33,618 bases of DNA from a virus. Shown piece after piece: positions 6,778 to 32,636 of the stretch. Within the stretch, counting starts at the first letter, position 1; the number at the start of each line of letters is the position of its first letter. The position numbers and the translations under genes were made by a program. The notes under the pieces are model-generated. The model had not been told where the DNA came from, did not search any database, and was given only the letters and a program-made list of their open reading frames with translations. Location: positions 1 through 33,618 of the IMG/VR virus record IMGVR_UViG_3300035698_015980. One strand, 5' to 3'.

Positions 6778-7233
6778 ATGGCAGCACCAAAAGGTAATAA
6801 ATTTGCATATGGAAACCCAAACACTGGACGTCCTGCAACTTGGACAAAAGAAATTATTGAAAAAGAAGCAGAGTTATTGATGAAATGGTGTAGAAAAGAG
6901 AGCTCTCTAATATTGCGTAAATTTGCGTGTCTAAGAGGTTATACTCATGCTTATATATATAAGTGGTCAGACCCTAATGACAAGGCATTTAGTGAAGTCT
7001 TTTACGACGCGTTCCATTTTGCAAAAAGCGTAATCGGTACTAGAAGAGAAGAATTAGACATTGTAAAGTTCGCACAAAGAGATATGGGAATGCATTTTGA
7101 AGAACTCGAAGCTTTTGAAAGAGATAGAGAAAAATTCAAATCTAAGTTAAAGCAAAAAGAGAATGAAGTGCAAGCGCTCACATTAGCAGAACTTAACAAG
7201 ATGTCTAAAAATGGTGAACTTTCACAAAAATGA
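6778..7233 (+). CDS. terS: Terminase small subunit
   Basis: A 151-residue protein directly before terL, with a 4-base ATGA overlap. The N-terminus KGNKFAYGNPNTGRPATW is the typical start of small terminase subunits and is followed by helices with an HTH-like FACLRGYTHAYIYKWSDP (about residues 41-58). The C-terminus is a charged helix (KFKSKLKQKENEVQ), suitable for oligomerisation or TerL contact. It would recognise phage DNA and load the packaging motor. AAGGAG precedes the ATG. Confidence 0.85.
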   Translation: MAAPKGNKFAYGNPNTGRPATWTKEIIEKEAELLMKWCRKESSLILRKFACLRGYTHAYIYKWSDPNDKAFSEVFYDAFHFAKSVIGTRREELDIVKFAQRDMGMHFEELEAFERDREKFKSKLKQKENEVQALTLAELNKMSKNGELSQK

Positions 7234-9482
7234 TTCATGATAAAATATGGAGACTAAATAATATTTATAGAATCGTAGATAAAATAGGGTCTTCTATTCC
7301 ATTCAAGTTAAATTCAGTTCAAGAAGTCGTAGCTAAAGATAATCACAAGCGAAAATTAATATTGAAAGCTCGTCAATTGGGGATGTGTTTAGATCCTGAT
7401 ATGCTTGTTCTAACAGACAAATTAAAATGGGTAAGGATTAAAGATATATCAGTAGGAGATGGCATAGTAGGAGTCGATGAGTTTGTAAAGAAACAAGAAA
7501 AACGTAGAAAGCTACGTCCTGCAATAGTAAAAGCAATCAAAAAGCATGTAGCTAAAAGATATAGAATTACATTTGAAGACGGAAATACTCTGATCTGTAC
7601 AGGTGAACACAGGTGGCTAACACGAAACTCAGCTACTGATTACAAGTGGAGAAGTATAAATGGAGGATCTAAGGATCTACTAAAGATAGGCTATAAGATA
7701 AGACGTTGTTTCATAGAAACATGGGAAACGAGCTGCTTAGATGATATTTGGATTGGTAAAATGCTAGAATATCATGGATTTCTTTCTAAAAGTAGCAGTA
7801 TTGGTGTATATATAAATCTTATCAAGATAGATGATTATGCATTAGCAAAAATTGAAAGCTATTTAAATAATAGAAATTATAACTATAGAATTGATATCAA
7901 TAAGATTGATATAAAATATGTAACTAAAATAGTTATCGGTCGTATTGACGAGATGATTAGATTGATAGGGATCACTAATACTACTAAGTTTCTTAATTCT
8001 ACATGGTGGCATGGAAAAGAAATGCCGAAAGTCAAGGATGGTCCATACTCTACAGTGGTACAAATAGACGACATTGGAGATGGTGAGGTTATTGATCTGC
8101 AAACATCTACTAAGACATTCATTGCAGATGGTTATGTATCTCATAATTCTACATTCGCAGTAATAGATCTACTAGATGATGTTCTATTCAATGAAAATCT
8201 AGCAGCAGGAATTGTTTCTTATTCACTTGAACACGCACAGCATATTTATAAACGCATCATTGGTCACGCTTTAGATACTATTCTTCCAGAACTAAAACCA
8301 TTAGTAGGTATCGTTTCACAATCAGCAAGAGAGATAACATTTTCTAATGGTTCGTTTTTAAGAGTAGACACTTCCCTACGCGGTGGATCTTACCAGTCAA
8401 TTCTAGTATCAGAATTTGGAAAAACATGTTCACGTAGTCCTATAAAGGCTGAAGAGGTGATTACAGGAACACTTCAAACTGTAGGAATTAATGGTAAAAT
8501 AGTAATTGAATCTACTGGTGAGGGAAATAGTGGTTACTTTGCTGAGATGTGCCATGGAGCTATTGTAAGAGGAAATGAAAACTTAAGTTCTCTTGAATAT
8601 AAGCTATTCTTTTTTAGTTGGCTAAAAGAAAAACTTTATAGAACAAGTCAAGTCATATCGTATGAGATAGAACTTTCTGATTACTTTGATGGATTAGAAA
8701 AAGATCTAAACATCATAATAGATAAAGAGCAAAGATTTTGGTATGCACAGCAAGCAAAAATTCTAGGAGATAAGATACGCCAAGAATTTCCTTCGACAGA
8801 AAATGAAGCTTTTTTAAGTAACTCAGACGCTTATTACTATGCTCAGTATATAGAATCTGCTTATAATAGTAATAGATGCTTACATACTAGCTTATATGAT
8901 GCTTTGTTGCCTGTTTATGTTGCGATGGATATAGGAGTAAATGATCTAACTGTAATTGTTTTCTTTCAAGTTGTTCATGGTGAAGTTAGATTTATTGATT
9001 ACTATGAAGATAAGAATAAAGGTGTAGATTTCTACGCTAAGTTTCTTCTTCAAGATAAAAAATATCATTATAATACTATTTTCTTACCTCATGACTCAGT
9101 AAAAAGGAGTCAAGTAATTGTTGAAAATACATATGAAAGAGAATTTAGAAAACTATTTTCGTGTGTTGGTACAAAATTTGTAGTACTTCAAAAAATGGAT
9201 ATTAATCTTGCTATTTCTCACACAAAAATTATGTTTGATAGATGTATATTTAATATAAATAGATTGAAACCATTTTTAGATCATGTTGGAAAATATAGAA
9301 AGAAATGGAGCCAACAACAAGGTAGATATTTAGACGAACCATTACACGATATTCACTCCAATTATTCAGATTGTTTAAAATATGTATGTATGGCTGTTAC
9401 AAAGATAGAAGCAGTATCAAACATGGGCGGAGCCCTAGAAAAACATAAGAAAGCTATTGATATGCGTCGTACTAGATTTTAA
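7230..9482 (+). CDS. terL: Terminase large subunit containing an intein
   Basis: The 750-residue precursor is a packaging ATPase/nuclease interrupted by a 254-residue intein at residues 53-306; the spliced product would be 496 residues, normal for TerL. The N-extein ends KARQLGM and the C-extein begins STFAVIDLL, restoring a Walker A-like RQLGxST in which Met replaces the usual Lys. Walker B is ILVSE (391-395). The RNase-H-like nuclease has candidate aspartates in AMDIG (D567), LPHDS (D622) and SDCLKY (D714). It overlaps terS by four bases. Without splicing the ATP-binding loop is destroyed, so packaging depends on the intein. Confidence 0.95.
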   Translation: MIHDKIWRLNNIYRIVDKIGSSIPFKLNSVQEVVAKDNHKRKLILKARQLGMCLDPDMLVLTDKLKWVRIKDISVGDGIVGVDEFVKKQEKRRKLRPAIVKAIKKHVAKRYRITFEDGNTLICTGEHRWLTRNSATDYKWRSINGGSKDLLKIGYKIRRCFIETWETSCLDDIWIGKMLEYHGFLSKSSSIGVYINLIKIDDYALAKIESYLNNRNYNYRIDINKIDIKYVTKIVIGRIDEMIRLIGITNTTKFLNSTWWHGKEMPKVKDGPYSTVVQIDDIGDGEVIDLQTSTKTFIADGYVSHNSTFAVIDLLDDVLFNENLAAGIVSYSLEHAQHIYKRIIGHALDTILPELKPLVGIVSQSAREITFSNGSFLRVDTSLRGGSYQSILVSEFGKTCSRSPIKAEEVITGTLQTVGINGKIVIESTGEGNSGYFAEMCHGAIVRGNENLSSLEYKLFFFSWLKEKLYRTSQVISYEIELSDYFDGLEKDLNIIIDKEQRFWYAQQAKILGDKIRQEFPSTENEAFLSNSDAYYYAQYIESAYNSNRCLHTSLYDALLPVYVAMDIGVNDLTVIVFFQVVHGEVRFIDYYEDKNKGVDFYAKFLLQDKKYHYNTIFLPHDSVKRSQVIVENTYEREFRKLFSCVGTKFVVLQKMDINLAISHTKIMFDRCIFNINRLKPFLDHVGKYRKKWSQQQGRYLDEPLHDIHSNYSDCLKYVCMAVTKIEAVSNMGGALEKHKKAIDMRRTRF
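7386..8147 (+). mobile_element. Intein in TerL Walker A, with degenerate homing domain
   Basis: The in-frame insert starts with Cys53 (CLDPDMLVL, block A), has TGEHRWLT (124-131, block B with the His), and ends VIDLQTSTKTFIADGYVSHN before Ser307, the blocks F/G with the terminal His-Asn and a Ser +1 nucleophile. The middle (about residues 172-275) resembles a LAGLIDADG endonuclease, but the catalytic-acid position reads LEYHG where a Gly-Asp/Glu-Gly type motif is expected, so cutting is probably lost while splicing residues are intact. Confidence 0.93.
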
Positions 9483-9484
9483 TG

Positions 9485-9745
9485 TCAACTACCTCTTCAT
9501 AAATGAAGAGGCTTGTAAGGTGACTTACGAGATAGCAACCGAAAGGTTGTAATAGGTGATTAGACTAAGTATTAAATTACTACGTTGTTTTGGTTATGAC
9601 ACCAGTGGATGCCTCCCAAGTCTGCTGCTCTGTCGTTTAGTATTAAAAGAGTTCAACGACTCGGTGTGCTAAGTGTAAAAAGCCTTTATAACATTGTCGA
9701 TGGGAATCAACCCGAAAGGGTTTCGTTAAATATTAACGGAGAAAT
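9485..9745 (+). ncRNA. IscB/IsrB-type omega RNA (HEARO-like)
   Basis: The space between terL and portal is highly structured. Hairpins: CCTCTTCA/TGAAGAGG (9492-9511), CTTGTAAG-GTGA-CTTACGAG (9512-9531), CAACC-GAAA-GGTTG (9536-9549), AACCC-GAAA-GGGTT (9709-9722). CGTTG (9583-9587) with CAACG (9654-9658) and ACACC (9599-9603) with GGTGT (9663-9667) cross, making a pseudoknot. The 3' end GGGAATCAACCC, then TATTAACGGAG and an ATG coding MKVFVINKN, is the arrangement of the omega RNA that precedes iscB. Length fits. In IscB systems the guide is 5' of the scaffold, here the terL end. The family call rests on remembered motifs; a covariance-model search would decide. Confidence 0.75.
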
Positions 9746-9747
9746 TT

Positions 9748-9825
9748 ATGAAAGTATTTGTAATTAACAAAAACCATGAAATTCATTCCTGCACTAAAGC
9801 GCAGGGTTTTCTTTCACTAGACTAG
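9748..9825 (+). pseudogene. Truncated iscB N-terminus (25 codons)
   Basis: An ATG with CGGAG upstream opens a 25-codon frame starting MKVFVINKNHE, the usual N-terminus of IscB/RRXRR proteins, followed by a shortened TKAQGFLSLD and a stop. The PLMP block, RuvC pieces, bridge helix and HNH are absent. Only the start region directly behind the omega RNA has been kept, so the nuclease is gone. Confidence 0.65.
9788..9810 (+). terminator. Hairpin followed by T-tract (element right end or terminator)
   Basis: CCTGC (9788-9792) pairs with GCAGG (9801-9805), followed by GTTTT. It could be a weak terminator in the late operon or the subterminal hairpin of an IS200/IS605-like right end, which would make 9485-9825 a compact palindrome-associated element with its nuclease deleted. 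Confidence 0.45.
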
Positions 9826-9828
9826 GAT

Positions 9829-9853
9829 AAATCAATCAACTAAAGGTACGTAA
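9829..9853 (+). promoter_or_regulatory. Portal-gene leader shared with the gene at 17254
   Basis: AAATCAATCAACTAAAGGT leads to the portal ATG; 17229-17253 carries almost the same leader (AAATCAATCACTAAAGGTAC). AAGG is the ribosome binding site. The length of identity beyond the binding site suggests a conserved translation or processing signal. Confidence 0.5.
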
Positions 9854-12058
9854 ATGTTAGATGATTACGAAGCAAAACAGGAATTTTTAGAAAATTATAG
9901 ATATGCTCATGATTTCTGGGCTCCATTTATAGAAGATGCTAAGGTTTATAATCTAGCACAATCTGGTTATACTTGGAGTGAAAGAGAGCGAAAAGCATTA
10001 GTAAAAGATGGTCGTGAACCTATTGAGTTCAATATTATGCGTAGACCTCTTCAGTTCTATAGCGGATATTTACGAGATAATATTAACTCTATCGTAATTG
10101 CTCCTATTGAAGGAAGCGACCAGAAAACAGCAGATCAACTAACAAAAGTAAGCTCTTATATCTGGGACAAAGCTGATGGATTTCCTATTTTTCTTGATTC
10201 ATGTGATGAATGCTTTAAAGCAGGAATTAGTCTTACAGGTCTTAGAATGGATTTTTCTAAAGATTTTATTAATGGTGATATTAGCTTCTATAAACGCACA
10301 TTTAATAGTTTTTATCTAGACCCTACTTTCGAGAATTTAAGTTTAAATGATTGTGGTTTTGCAATCATGAGAGATCTACTAAACAAAGACTCTGCTAAAG
10401 CTCTTCTACCATTTGTTCCTAAAGAAGTTATAGACGAAATACATAACGGATTTCGTGATGAAAAGTTTATGAGCTATCATCCACAATTTACAACGTTTAG
10501 TCGTAATCGTAACTTATTAGCATATGATCAGTATTACAAGAGAACAACTCGAAATCGTGATATGTTGATAGATCAACGAACTGGTTTTTATAAAGACATC
10601 ACAGACGAAGATGAAGAAGCTAGAGAAAAGCTAGAACGTGGAATACATCGCTTTGAACAGTTAAGAAGAGAATCTGATGATATTGGAATTAATAAAGACG
10701 ATATACCAATTGTTGAAATAAAGACAGTTGAACGTCCATTCATTGAATTAAGTATTATGCTAAACGGAGAACAAGTATATGTTGGAGAAGATAGAACTGG
10801 AATAGTAGAAGCATACCCATTCGCTCCAAATATTTGTTATTTAGAGCCGTCAATATGGATGTCATCACAAAGAATACAAGGAATTTCATCAACGCAATGG
10901 AGCATGCAGAGACAGTTTAATAAAAGACATATGAAAATAATTGATATGATGGACTCAAACATATCTACAGGTTTCAAATATATATTAGGAACTGTACCAG
11001 ATCCACAGGAAATGCAGCAATCGGGTCAAAATAAGTTGATCGGCGTATCACTAGAAGATAATCCTTTGGGTCTTGATTCAGTACAGCAACTTCAGGGTGG
11101 CGGTGCAAATCCAGCTCTAATGGAATATCAAAAAATCCTTGATGATCTATCTCTTACATTAGCAAATATCAATGAATCTGTTTTGGGAATAGATGAGAAA
11201 GGTAATACTCAAGTCAGCGGTCGACTAGCTCAAGTTAGAATCGCTCAAGGATTACGATCAAATCGTAAGATATTCGACAATATCGAGACATCACAACAAA
11301 TTCTTGGTAGTCTTGTTCTCACAGCAATTCAAAAAAACTACTCTCCTGATAAGATTGAAAGAATCATCAATGAAAAACCTACAGAACAGTTTTACGAAAA
11401 TGACTTTGAACAATATGATGCTGTAATTAAAGAGGGTGTACGATCTAAATCACAGAAAGACGCTTACTATTACGAGCTTATCAATCTTAAGCGTGATGGA
11501 ATAGTTGATGTTCCGCAATCTGAAATTGTGAGAGCTTTACAAATGTCTGGACTTTCTGATTTACAAGAAGCAATTCAAAAGCAGGAAGAAAATAGATCTG
11601 AACATCAACAAAAAATTGATGAACAAGAAAAAATGGCTCTTAAGCTTGGGAATGCTGAAGTTATTTCAAAACTATCCCTAGCAAAAGAACGTGAAGCGAG
11701 AATTATTTCTGATATAAGTCTATCAGAATCAAGAACAGCAGATGCAGCAGAGAGTAGAGCAAAAGCAGCTTTAGATCGAGCCAAGACTATTACAGAAATA
11801 GCAGGGATGAAAGAAGATAGAATTATTAAAGTGTTAAATTTTGTTCAGATGTTAGAAGAACAAGAAACAGCAGATAGAGAATTTGTTTCAAATAAAGTAT
11901 TTAGCGAGTCGGATAGAGTTAATAATAATGTTGAGACTTCACTTTCTTTAAAATCTCCTCAACAACCTGAAGTTCCTGTAGAGAATGATACTATTCAAAA
12001 ACCTGAAGTTCCTGTAAAGAATGATACTATTTATAATGGAGACGACTTGTTAGTTTAG
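9854..12058 (+). CDS. Portal protein, P22 type
   Basis: A 734-residue protein, the size of P22-like portals. The first 550 residues have the portal layout: YAHDFWAPFIEDAKVYNL, REPIEFNIMRRPLQFYSGYLRDN, then WSMQRQFNKRHMKIIDMMDS (stem helix region) and VSGRLAQVRIAQGL. It forms the dodecameric ring through which TerL pumps DNA and to which the tail hub attaches. Residues 560-700 are a long coiled-coil, comparable to the barrel of P22 gp1. The last 30 residues contain a two-copy repeat PEVPVxNDTI encoded by a 36-bp tandem duplication (11966-12034), absent from typical portals. It is separated from terL by the omega RNA element. Confidence 0.92.
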   Translation: MLDDYEAKQEFLENYRYAHDFWAPFIEDAKVYNLAQSGYTWSERERKALVKDGREPIEFNIMRRPLQFYSGYLRDNINSIVIAPIEGSDQKTADQLTKVSSYIWDKADGFPIFLDSCDECFKAGISLTGLRMDFSKDFINGDISFYKRTFNSFYLDPTFENLSLNDCGFAIMRDLLNKDSAKALLPFVPKEVIDEIHNGFRDEKFMSYHPQFTTFSRNRNLLAYDQYYKRTTRNRDMLIDQRTGFYKDITDEDEEAREKLERGIHRFEQLRRESDDIGINKDDIPIVEIKTVERPFIELSIMLNGEQVYVGEDRTGIVEAYPFAPNICYLEPSIWMSSQRIQGISSTQWSMQRQFNKRHMKIIDMMDSNISTGFKYILGTVPDPQEMQQSGQNKLIGVSLEDNPLGLDSVQQLQGGGANPALMEYQKILDDLSLTLANINESVLGIDEKGNTQVSGRLAQVRIAQGLRSNRKIFDNIETSQQILGSLVLTAIQKNYSPDKIERIINEKPTEQFYENDFEQYDAVIKEGVRSKSQKDAYYYELINLKRDGIVDVPQSEIVRALQMSGLSDLQEAIQKQEENRSEHQQKIDEQEKMALKLGNAEVISKLSLAKEREARIISDISLSESRTADAAESRAKAALDRAKTITEIAGMKEDRIIKVLNFVQMLEEQETADREFVSNKVFSESDRVNNNVETSLSLKSPQQPEVPVENDTIQKPEVPVKNDTIYNGDDLLV

Positions 12059-12240: not shown

Positions 12241-12360
12241 AAAATATCAGGCCGTTTGAACGACGGTCTAAAGCTTGTGGATCTGCCTTCGTTGGAAGGA
12301 TCTGTGAAGCAAGAATCTTTCGCCTTTAGGCGAGATGAGGTTCAAACGGAAATGTATTAA
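12241..12360 (+). pseudogene. TnpB C-terminal tail remnant
   Basis: An open stretch of 39 codons between TGA (12238) and TAA (12358) encodes a tail containing LKLVDLPSLEG and SVKQESFAFRRDEV, the sequence style at the extreme C-terminus of IS605-family TnpB proteins, where coding and omega RNA overlap. No RuvC motif or zinc finger precedes it. A second frame with ATG at 12208 also runs through this segment but matches nothing. Confidence 0.65.
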
Positions 12361-23470: not shown

Positions 23471-24256
23471 TTATACGTATTTCCATATTTTACCAGTTTT
23501 AATTCTAGATACTATAGAATCTGAGATACCAAACTTTTTTGAGATAATACATCCAGGAATTTTTTTATTAAGCATCTTTTTTATTTTTTTAACAATATCT
23601 TCTGATAGCTTTGAAATACCACAACTATTATCTTTTTCGTATCTTACTTCAGTGTTATCTATATTTGATTCTAAAAATAGATGGTCTGGATTAACGCATT
23701 TTATTTCATTACATTTATGACTTATGCGCATATAACTTGGAATGTTTCCATTAAATAGTTTATAAGAAGCTATATGTACATATTTATATTTTCCTGTCCA
23801 AAGTCTTGGATATCCATCGCTACCAATATTTCCTTTCCAAATCCAACAATCAGTTTCGTTATTTATATTGACATTAGATCTAATCTTTTTTTTAAGAATG
23901 GTTCCTTTTTTATTTTTAATACATCCACAACTTTTTGTATTACTAGACATTAAATCTCTGCTAGTAACTTTAGTTTTATTTCCACAGCTACACAAACATA
24001 TCCAATATCTACTTCTTTCCTTAACTCCATCTTGTTTTAATACAGTTAGGTGACTAAATTTCTTTCCTTCAAGTTGAAGCCCACGTTTGCAACCGCAAGA
24101 TGTAGAATTATTATTTCTTATGTATCTTGCCTCTAATGCAATATAATTTCCGCAAGAACATTTGCACATCCATTTAGATTGGACACTATTTTTGTTTTCA
24201 ATGCGTTTAATAATTGTAAGTTGACCAAATTTTTTATTTTCTAATTTAAGAGTCAT
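23471..24256 (-). CDS. HNH homing endonuclease with two zinc/AP2-like modules
   Basis: A 261-residue protein, opposite to the late operon. Residues 8-55 and 62-112 are two copies of a module of type FGQLTIIKR..WMCKCSCGN..SCGC, a Cys-rich DNA-binding unit seen in phage HNH proteins. The HNH core follows: CWIWKGNIGSDGYPR, then HIASYKLFNG, ISHKCNEIKCVNPDHL and a final DN. The C-terminus is an HTH (SEDIVKKIKKMLNKK, then ISKKFGISDSIVSRI). Ribosome binding site AAGGA on the minus strand just before the ATG. It is flanked by two copies of the end of the ejection-protein gene. Confidence 0.88.
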   Translation of the reverse strand: MTLKLENKKFGQLTIIKRIENKNSVQSKWMCKCSCGNYIALEARYIRNNNSTSCGCKRGLQLEGKKFSHLTVLKQDGVKERSRYWICLCSCGNKTKVTSRDLMSSNTKSCGCIKNKKGTILKKKIRSNVNINNETDCWIWKGNIGSDGYPRLWTGKYKYVHIASYKLFNGNIPSYMRISHKCNEIKCVNPDHLFLESNIDNTEVRYEKDNSCGISKLSEDIVKKIKKMLNKKIPGCIISKKFGISDSIVSRIKTGKIWKYV

Positions 24257-24268
24257 TTTTAATATCCT

Positions 24269-24334
24269 TCTTTAAGAAATCATTATTTAAATGGGTTGAA
24301 AGCAGCAGCAGAAGAATATCTTCCAGCGTTTATT
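24269..24334 (+). pseudogene. Second copy of the 3' end of the ejection-protein gene
   Basis: Sixty-six bases match 23015-23080 with five mismatches, same orientation, beginning TCTTTAAGAAATCATTATTT. The copy has no gene in front of it and ends at the 3' end of the next minus-strand HNH gene. It is best read as the old gene end, displaced when an endonuclease cassette brought a replacement end. Confidence 0.8.
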
Positions 24335-25157
24335 ATTTTACGTGTTTCCAGGTTTCTCTTTTTATAGCTTTATGAATACATGTTCTATTTACATTAAATT
24401 TTTCAGCTAGACTATTTAAACTTTCTTTTTTATTTAAATAATATTCTCGTATATATTTAACTTTATCTTCATTTAATTTTGAGGATCCATGCATTGATCC
24501 TTTTGCTTGTCTATCTTTTTTCACCATATCTCTACTATTATCAAGATTTGTACCTTTAATTAAGTGATCAGGATTACAACAAAGTTTACAGTCGCAGGTA
24601 TGCATTATAACATGTTTTTTACTACTAATTGGTATTTTAAATACTGAATAAGATAATCTATGCATTTGCCAAAATTGCCCATTAATGTGTATTCTTCCAT
24701 ATCCTTTATTTAGTTCGCTTTTTTGCCATATCCAACATCCATTATCGTTCACAATAATGTTATTTTTTATATATTGTCTAATCTCTTCAATATTTGAAAA
24801 ATTTGGATTTTCTCTACAATAAACGATAGCAAAACATTTTTTACATATTCCTGAGTGTTTTTTTGCTCTAAATACAGGAACTATCTTTTCTTTTCCACAT
24901 TCCTTGCATTTAATTTTTACTCCACGTGTTTTTACTTTTCCGTGTACGCAGATAATATCTGTGTCTTTAAGTAAATCTTTACGTGATTTCCACTTACAAC
25001 TGATGCAATATCCTTTATGAGTATTAAGTCCTTGCATTGGTATTTTTAATTCTTTTCCACATTCCTTGCATTTTCTTAAAACTCCACGTCGACGCCTTTT
25101 TCTTTCTTTTTCATTCTGTTCAATCCATATTAGTTTTTCTTTTTGCAATTCCTGCAT
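24333..25157 (-). CDS. HNH homing endonuclease, main reading frame
   Basis: A 274-residue frame. It has two zinc-ribbon-like repeats (RKCKECGKELKIP, ISCK and then IKCKECGKEKIVP, CKKC) and the HNH core: CWIWQKSELNKGYGRI, QMHRLSYSVF, IMHTCDCKLCCNPDHLIKGTNLDN. It ends with an HTH (LNEDKVKYIREYYLNKKESL, NVNRTCIHKAIKRETW). The upstream frame at 25120-25374 carries two further zinc ribbons and overlaps by 38 bases, so the start at 25157 may be only apparent and the whole may be one gene broken by a frameshift. Confidence 0.82.
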   Translation of the reverse strand: MQELQKEKLIWIEQNEKERKRRRRGVLRKCKECGKELKIPMQGLNTHKGYCISCKWKSRKDLLKDTDIICVHGKVKTRGVKIKCKECGKEKIVPVFRAKKHSGICKKCFAIVYCRENPNFSNIEEIRQYIKNNIIVNDNGCWIWQKSELNKGYGRIHINGQFWQMHRLSYSVFKIPISSKKHVIMHTCDCKLCCNPDHLIKGTNLDNSRDMVKKDRQAKGSMHGSSKLNEDKVKYIREYYLNKKESLNSLAEKFNVNRTCIHKAIKRETWKHVK

Positions 25158-31793: not shown

Positions 31794-31817
31794 TTGGTAA
31801 ACTTGGTTTTTTACCAA
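31794..31817 (+). promoter_or_regulatory. Hairpin abutting the ribosome binding site of an HNH gene
   Basis: TTGGTAAA (31794-31801) pairs perfectly with TTTACCAA (31810-31817). The AAGGA binding site (31816-31820) of the GTG at 31827 begins inside the stem. This parallels the hairpin before the HNH gene at 15449. Confidence 0.55.
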
Positions 31818-31826
31818 GGATTCAAT

Positions 31827-32636
31827 GTGAGAATTTGCAAAATATGCGAGATTGAAAAGGAAGATTCAAGATTTGATAGAAGCCACGGATATCTTTGTAG
31901 ATATTGTAAAGAATGCAGAAAGAAAAAACCGTGGTACAAGCTAAAAGGAACTATAAATACAGGTAGATTTAAAAAAGGAAACCATCCAGTAGCTCCTTTT
32001 AAAAAAGGATATATTCCGTGGAATAAAGGGAAAAAAGCTAGCAAAGAAACGTGTTTGAAAATAGGTCTAGCCAAAAAGGGTAAAAAATTTAGCAAAGAAC
32101 ATATTGAAAAGCGAACTAAAACATTTAGTGAAAATTGGATAAAAAGAAATCCTAGCGGAAGTAGAGGATCACCAAGAGCGAGAAATTGGAGTAGACAAGT
32201 AATAGAGCGTGACGGTAATAAATGTACTTTGTGTGTGTCAGAAGAAAAATTACACGCTCATCACATTATAGGATGGGATGATGATAAAACAAAAAGATTT
32301 GATATAGACAATGGTATAACATTATGTATAATCTGCCATATGTCACTTCATGGTAAAGGAAGACCGTCTTGGAATAAAGGAAAAAAACTCAGCGAAGAAC
32401 ATCGAAAAAATATTAGCAATTCGAATATAGGAAAAAAATCTTGGAACAGTGGAATATATACACCACCAGAAAAAATACGCAAATGCAAGGTGTGTGGAAT
32501 AGAAAAGGAAATTAAGTGCTTTACACTATCAGGAATATACATAAGAAGAGAGTGTAAGATGTGCAGAAATTTAAAGATTGCTAACAAAAAGTTGGAATTA
32601 CTAAGAGGTTTAAATGGTGGCAATAAAATACACTAA
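31827..32636 (+). CDS. HNH homing endonuclease with NUMOD3 motifs
   Basis: From GTG at 31827 (AAGGA seven bases before) the protein has 269 residues; the TTG at 31794 lies in a hairpin and is rejected. It contains an N-terminal zinc ribbon (CKICEIEKEDSRF, CKECRKKK), NUMOD3 DNA-binding repeats (PWNKGKKASKETCLKIG, KKGKKFSKEHIEKR and again PSWNKGKKLSEEHRKNIS), an HNH core (CTLCVSEEKLHAHHIIGW, DNGITLCIICHMSLHG) and a C-terminal zinc ribbon (CKVCGIEKEIKCF, CKMCRNLK). Its end overlaps the next fibre gene by 23 bases. A free-standing homing endonuclease inserted between two fibre genes. Confidence 0.9.
   Translation: MRICKICEIEKEDSRFDRSHGYLCRYCKECRKKKPWYKLKGTINTGRFKKGNHPVAPFKKGYIPWNKGKKASKETCLKIGLAKKGKKFSKEHIEKRTKTFSENWIKRNPSGSRGSPRARNWSRQVIERDGNKCTLCVSEEKLHAHHIIGWDDDKTKRFDIDNGITLCIICHMSLHGKGRPSWNKGKKLSEEHRKNISNSNIGKKSWNSGIYTPPEKIRKCKVCGIEKEIKCFTLSGIYIRRECKMCRNLKIANKKLELLRGLNGGNKIH

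Follow-up and report, generated by a model that had tools for sequence, protein, structure and literature searches.

The window analysed here is the whole of IMG/VR record IMGVR_UViG_3300035698_015980 (positions 1-33,618), a possibly incomplete contig of an uncultured metagenomic phage. Its genes for the terminase large subunit (terL) and the portal protein are separated by 371 bp, where the closest relatives have 72-88 bp, and this gap holds an omega RNA of the IscB type (HEARO), a short open reading frame that begins like iscB, and a hairpin of the kind that follows iscB in intact viral elements. The features are collected in Table 1.

Table 1. Features at and around the terL-portal gap of the window
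Feature	Position	Strand	Basis
terL (terminase large subunit); its final bases are the element's left flank	7230-9482	+	tblastn and relatives
Intein inside terL (residues 52-306)	about 7383-8147	+	Pfam Intein_splicing PF14890, residues 60-306, E 2.5e-9
Putative guide, 16 nt, CGTACTAGATTTTAAT (terL end and stop codon)	9468-9483	+	Position expected from IscB biology
Complete HEARO/IscB omega RNA scaffold, with the element's left end (LE) as part of it	9484-9711	+	Rfam RF02033
Left-end subterminal hairpin CCTCTTCATAAATGAAGAGG, within the omega RNA; likely the left hairpin recognised by TnpA	9492-9511	+	Fold
Omega RNA pseudoknot, 5' strand	9563-9567	+	Pairs with 9694-9698; projected Rfam structure, 4 of 5 pairs canonical
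Omega RNA pseudoknot, 3' strand	9694-9698	+	Pairs with 9563-9567; projected Rfam structure
25-codon ORF: about 10 codons from the start of iscB (MKVFVINKNH), then running on into the right end	9748-9825	+	Sequence; viral IscB N-termini
Right-end (RE) hairpin ATGAAATTCATTCCTGCACTAAAGCGCAGGGTTTTCTTTCAC	9776-9817	+	Covariance model R1; best match of the window
ATAAA, candidate counterpart of the TAM-like ATGA or ATAA that flanks intact elements	9827-9831	+	Comparison with the flanks of other elements, both intact and orphan
Portal protein gene, right-hand neighbour	9854-12058	+	PHROG 156 portal protein, E 2.1e-38; relatives

The omega RNA scaffold

The original prediction of an IscB-type omega RNA between terL and portal is borne out by the Rfam HEARO model (RF02033), which in a cmscan of the window matches over its full length (model positions 1-211 of 211) with 119.6 bits (E 2.1e-24), above the curated gathering score of 83 bits. 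It is the sole Rfam family in the window, and a search of the phage's own record returns the same single match. When the Rfam structure is projected onto the sequence, 58 of its 63 pairs are canonical. The five non-canonical pairs include three consecutive U.U pairs (9589-9591/9685-9687) in the main helix, where 9584-9594 pairs with 9682-9692; in relative L221 a comparable U.U run, shifted by one step, can be read from the alignment. The crossing helices first proposed from the sequence (9583/9654 and 9599/9663) differ from the family structure, which has instead this main helix and the pseudoknot. The first 77 nt of the RNA are far more stably folded than shuffled sequences (z -6.5, 0 of 200).

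Covariation was assessed by transferring the Rfam structure, via the row of the window, to an alignment of 16 viral HEAROs, neither alignment nor structure having been tuned to the test. Some 84.9% of alignment cells pair, 38 of the 63 pairs have changed on both sides, and the covariation score of 0.484 compares with 0.194 for shuffled alignments and at most 0.134 with pairing partners slid. Compensatory changes across the 16 viral relatives strongly back the predicted omega RNA structure.

The iscB stub and the right end

Downstream of the scaffold the usual order of omega RNA, ribosome-binding site and iscB start is seen, as had been noted originally. The ORF translates as MKVFVINKNHEIHSCTKAQGFLSLD, followed by a stop codon, and its N-terminus resembles viral IscB starts (M-x-VFVI/LDK); the 25-residue peptide has no Pfam match. 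For the right end we built a covariance model (R1) from 13 other REs with the window left out. Run on both strands of the whole window, R1 places its best match at the RE hairpin (25.6 bits, E 4.9e-5), and in held-out intact elements it finds REs close 3' of iscB (L200, L208, L210/L224, L189, L204, L216, L191, L196 and L218). Because the RE starts inside the stub's codon 10, the ORF is best described as the start of iscB read through into the right end. The stub is thus real and IscB-like at its start, but only about 10 of its codons derive from iscB and the remainder is transposon right end. The idea that it encodes a conserved small protein was rejected on the same ground, its tail being the right end.

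In intact viral elements an RE hairpin comes immediately after iscB, which has about 390-480 codons. The outer stem of this hairpin encloses, in order, TTC(C/A)T, an inner hairpin with a loop that is often CTAAAG, and (G)TTTC(C/T); ATGA or ATAA lies about 2-12 nt past the RE. The RE of the window is followed by GGATAAA. Its outer stem is short (5 bp), and its fold is modestly better than shuffled sequences (z -1.3). The limits initially given for the feature, 9485-9825, put it in the right place, although the element extends to about 9826 and its RE had been overlooked.

Search for an effector and a transposase

IscB was sought with profile NF040563 (NCBIfam, cut-off 175 bits) in 50 records that served as controls and tests, 16 of which scored above the cut-off. 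In the 33.6-kb record no IscB was found, the profile touching only the HNH domain of ORF 31794-32636 (27.8 bits), and none of the related phage records searched exceeded the cut-off. Production of an IscB by the phage itself was rejected as a possibility, IscB being absent from its record. The locus is an omega RNA with no IscB effector adjacent or in the same record, and does not constitute a complete OMEGA (IscB) system. Likewise, no Y1 TnpA (PF01797) was found in the record, while control records were positive.

TnpA genes are associated with ends of this kind elsewhere. In a related phage (G032, locus L033) a Y1 TnpA gene is followed by the same RE type with the flank GGATAA, and in phage G155 a TnpA+TnpB element has an end-hairpin core that resembles that of the orphan omega RNA locus L220 of the same genome.

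Identity and proposed origin of the element

We interpret the locus as an iscB-deleted, non-autonomous element of the IS200/IS605 superfamily (ISC/HEARO), an explanation that, taken as a whole, we hold with a probability of about 0.82. Both subterminal hairpins of the family are present, the RE as recognised by the held-out model and the LE as the 5' helices of the HEARO. The left hairpin is itself a partial match to the right-end model (13.7 bits), and its type recurs in the mini elements L075, L110 and L072. What the sequence retains is the left end with the full omega RNA, ten iscB codons, the RE hairpin and the ATAAA flank. An ancestral IscB-carrying element would have inserted just past the terL stop codon, and a single internal deletion would have joined approximately codon 10 of iscB to the right end, with the loss of about 1.2 kb. 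Internal deletion is the usual origin of non-autonomous IS200/IS605 elements. The combination of a kept RNA and a destroyed reading frame had been taken as the opposite of random decay; one internal deletion that leaves both ends is the simpler reading.

The element could also be a dead relic, in which insertion and iscB loss were one event followed by neutral drift, and the apparent quality of the RNA reflects nothing more than a recent loss. We put this at somewhat less than an even chance. The ends and the RNA would look intact soon after a deletion, the U.U run in the main helix fits with drift, and the element is single: neither a second copy nor a close relative carrying it was found in the searched phage, plasmid and related viral records. 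Against this, the LE-omega RNA-RE anatomy occurs in at least six phages, which points to a deletion form that is persistent or still moving.

The insertion site in related phages

Relatives were sampled as 58 terL-related and 55 portal-related viral loci. The insert is absent from the closest of them, as would be expected of an empty site, but the window lacks about 45 bp of their terL-portal gap, a promoter-like stretch among them, so that the insertion is not clean relative to the empty relatives. No true empty allele from the window's own lineage is present in the collections. Searches further afield returned little: a blastn search of annotated phages with the insert gave nothing useful, one of plasmids recovered the conserved RNA core only (three records), a scan for phages sharing the terL end gave mostly chance matches, and a portal-protein scan of bacterial genomes matched only two MAG-binned phage contigs.

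Among 99 related records a HEARO was found in one (G022, L110/L226), where it lies at a different place, has no iscB and is followed by an RE. A conserved regulatory RNA of the phage group was rejected as an identity for the insert on this count. Another proposal is that the RNA has been domesticated and now helps this phage to tune expression of portal versus terL, in the role of leader, terminator or processing site. It lies in sense orientation between two structural genes, where it takes the place of part of the usual gap, and the stretch has no terminator-like site other than the RE. We nevertheless consider this role very unlikely, given that relatives manage with a short gap, that the insert is not a conserved feature of the group and that the terminator count is near that of shuffled sequences.

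The terL-portal gap is a recurrent insertion spot. In L075 it holds a short mini element made of a left-end helix and a right end, and in L072 (4637-5004) an element of about 367-368 bp with the same left-end motif and a right end. L111 carries part of the L072 copy together with a second copy (9430-9796) elsewhere, 95% identical. This 367-bp pair at two sites indicates, as judged from the sequences, that transposase-free LE...RE elements move in this phage group. No Rfam family matches the L072/L111 element, whose open frames do not exceed 99 residues; it is largely non-coding with ISC-like ends, and possibly represents another type of guide RNA. The terL-portal gaps of L016, L020, L021 and L107 measure 1.3-2.4 kb.

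For the iscB-deleted element of the window, movement, now or when it last occurred, would most likely have been by 'peel and paste' as single strands. The Y1 TnpA would have been supplied in trans by another element of the host or by a co-infecting phage, recognising the same two subterminal hairpins. The TnpA gene of the related phage G032, the mini elements and the shared right-end type favour such movement.

Recurrence among viral HEARO loci

Viral HEAROs were gathered by an IMG/VR scan for the conserved RNA core and confirmed with the Rfam model. Of the 41 loci obtained, 12 lack an adjacent iscB; the sample is biased by the conserved-core scan toward well-kept RNAs, includes near-duplicate contigs and is silent on the number of decayed RNAs missed. 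At least six orphan loci, the window among them, keep the right end: in L194, L195, L199, L220 and L226 the omega RNA is followed by an RE at 77-133 nt, and in the window at 65 nt. Orphan omega RNAs occur without any iscB in G124, G149, G155, G022 and the window, and together with intact iscB copies in the same phage in G126, G125 and G108.

The closest sampled omega RNA is that of the orphan L220 (74% identity over 158 nt), on a 183-kb contig (IMGVR_UViG_3300035529_000070, G155). Like the window, L220 has an iscB stub (about 12 codons) and a retained right end in a record without iscB; unlike it, L220 belongs to another phage and lies at another site, in a genome that also contains the TnpA+TnpB element with a similar end hairpin.

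The loci also bear on the quality of the contig. The window is a metagenomic assembly and such elements are repeated in communities, so an assembler might have collapsed an intact element and dropped iscB. That the same deletion anatomy occurs in independent contigs from other samples, which differ in their deletion points and whose RNAs have low mutual identity (74% for L220), makes this artefact highly improbable.

The omega RNA as a possible guide

The guide of IscB lies 5' of the scaffold. At this locus it would consist of the end of terL and its stop codon, and the omega RNA would probably be produced by read-through of the late operon. The RNA may be structurally fit to load a foreign IscB, its guiding activity being hypothetical. 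In a compatible addition to the deletion-element explanation, an IscB of the host or of a co-infecting phage would use the omega RNA to cut the empty terL-portal site, and repair would keep or copy the element, as in homing.

The scaffold is complete and pseudoknotted, and orphan RNAs score no lower than those beside iscB (means of 125.7 and 125.1 bits, p = 1.0), although conserved-core sampling favours well-kept RNAs. The coexistence of orphan RNAs and intact iscB in some phages also speaks for such a guide. Standalone omega RNAs have been reported to be functional with IscB in trans (cited in PMC9581776), and TnpB, according to one report, drives IS elements through populations of plasmids (PMC11870625). 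Set against these points are the lack of an IscB in the record and in the related phages searched, the three consecutive U.U pairs in the main helix, and the sequence of the nearest empty relative. In L004, the closest relative in which this part is alike, 14 of the 16 guide bases match and one mismatch lies two bases from the TAM side. For OgeuIscB, which has the TAM NNRR, mismatches at positions 1-14 abolish cutting (PMC9640706). Because the L004 mismatch is TAM-proximal and OgeuIscB is intolerant of such mismatches, the suggestion that a trans-acting IscB would be directed to terL of relatives that lack the insert is not supported as first worded, and it is doubtful that the known empty relatives would be cut. 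Active guiding in trans at this locus is on balance unlikely. The broader proposition also appears unlikely: that phages carry a class of iscB-less elements with a working omega RNA and both ends, which would spread as guide-only parasites, with a borrowed TnpA moving the ends and the guide enlisting a borrowed IscB against insert-less alleles.

Relation to known systems

The locus resembles HEARO/IscB omega RNAs (RF02033) in its full-length model match, its pseudoknot and the position of the RNA just upstream of an iscB start with a ribosome-binding site. It differs from HEARO/OMEGA systems in that iscB ends after about 10 codons and in its position between phage structural genes. With the reported standalone omega RNAs (cited in PMC9581776) it has in common that there is no adjacent effector gene; it stands apart from them in keeping both transposon ends and a stub, in its phage carrier and in having no IscB in the record. 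Palindrome-associated transposable elements (PATEs) are described as the joined ends that remain once IS605-type elements have lost their core (PMC3119063); like the element of the window, they are transposase-free, have subterminal palindromes at both ends and arose by core deletion, whereas the element of the window is of IscB-element origin and keeps a whole structured guide RNA.

The HEARO family, transposase-free IS605 derivatives and standalone omega RNAs are already known; the interest of the present element is its recurrence in phages and the retained guide scaffold. It is a clean example from nature of an RNA-guided system cut down, in a phage, to a guide and mobile ends, and with 12 of the 41 viral loci lacking an adjacent iscB, the reduction is recurrent. 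Such an element could move only with enzymes from elsewhere, and might serve as a potential guide for a borrowed nuclease. It poses the question of whether guide-only elements parasitise the IscB and TnpA of others, as MITEs do transposases. Finding an omega RNA in a phage does not in itself amount to evidence of a phage-encoded nuclease.

Additional observations

Several other arrangements were noted among the loci compared. In L190 (G126, positions 601-881) an orphan HEARO is followed by an inverted right end and then by a TnpB gene; the 185-kb contig G126 has six HEAROs and a Y1 TnpA. The 165-kb contig G156 (IMGVR_UViG_3300030508_000013) carries a split iscB. Its N-terminal half (151 aa) follows the HEARO L221 (2801-3009, minus strand) at about 98 kb, and its C-terminal half with the HNH (L346, 633-1292, minus strand) lies at about 149 kb, about 50 kb off. 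This could be a rearranged gene or a working two-piece IscB.

In the window itself, positions 12250-12350, between portal and the next gene, contain a 10-bp stem (CCGTTTGAAC/GTTCAAACGG) that encloses hairpins. The minus-strand fold has a z of -3.5 and there is a weak minus-strand match to the right-end model (E 0.012); the stretch has no Rfam family, and the related loci compared give short, weak matches only. Three ORFs for HNH (homing-type) endonucleases are present in the 33.6-kb contig, at 23471-24256 (-), 24333-25157 (-) and 31794-32636 (+), the first two of which are adjacent and have several matched families in common. The intein in terL sits at the Walker A loop. Most relatives are without one, and some have an intein at the same place in terL or inserts elsewhere in the gene (L002, L003, L011, L013, L045 and L056). 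Mobile inserts of several kinds are thus found in and around terL across the related phage group.
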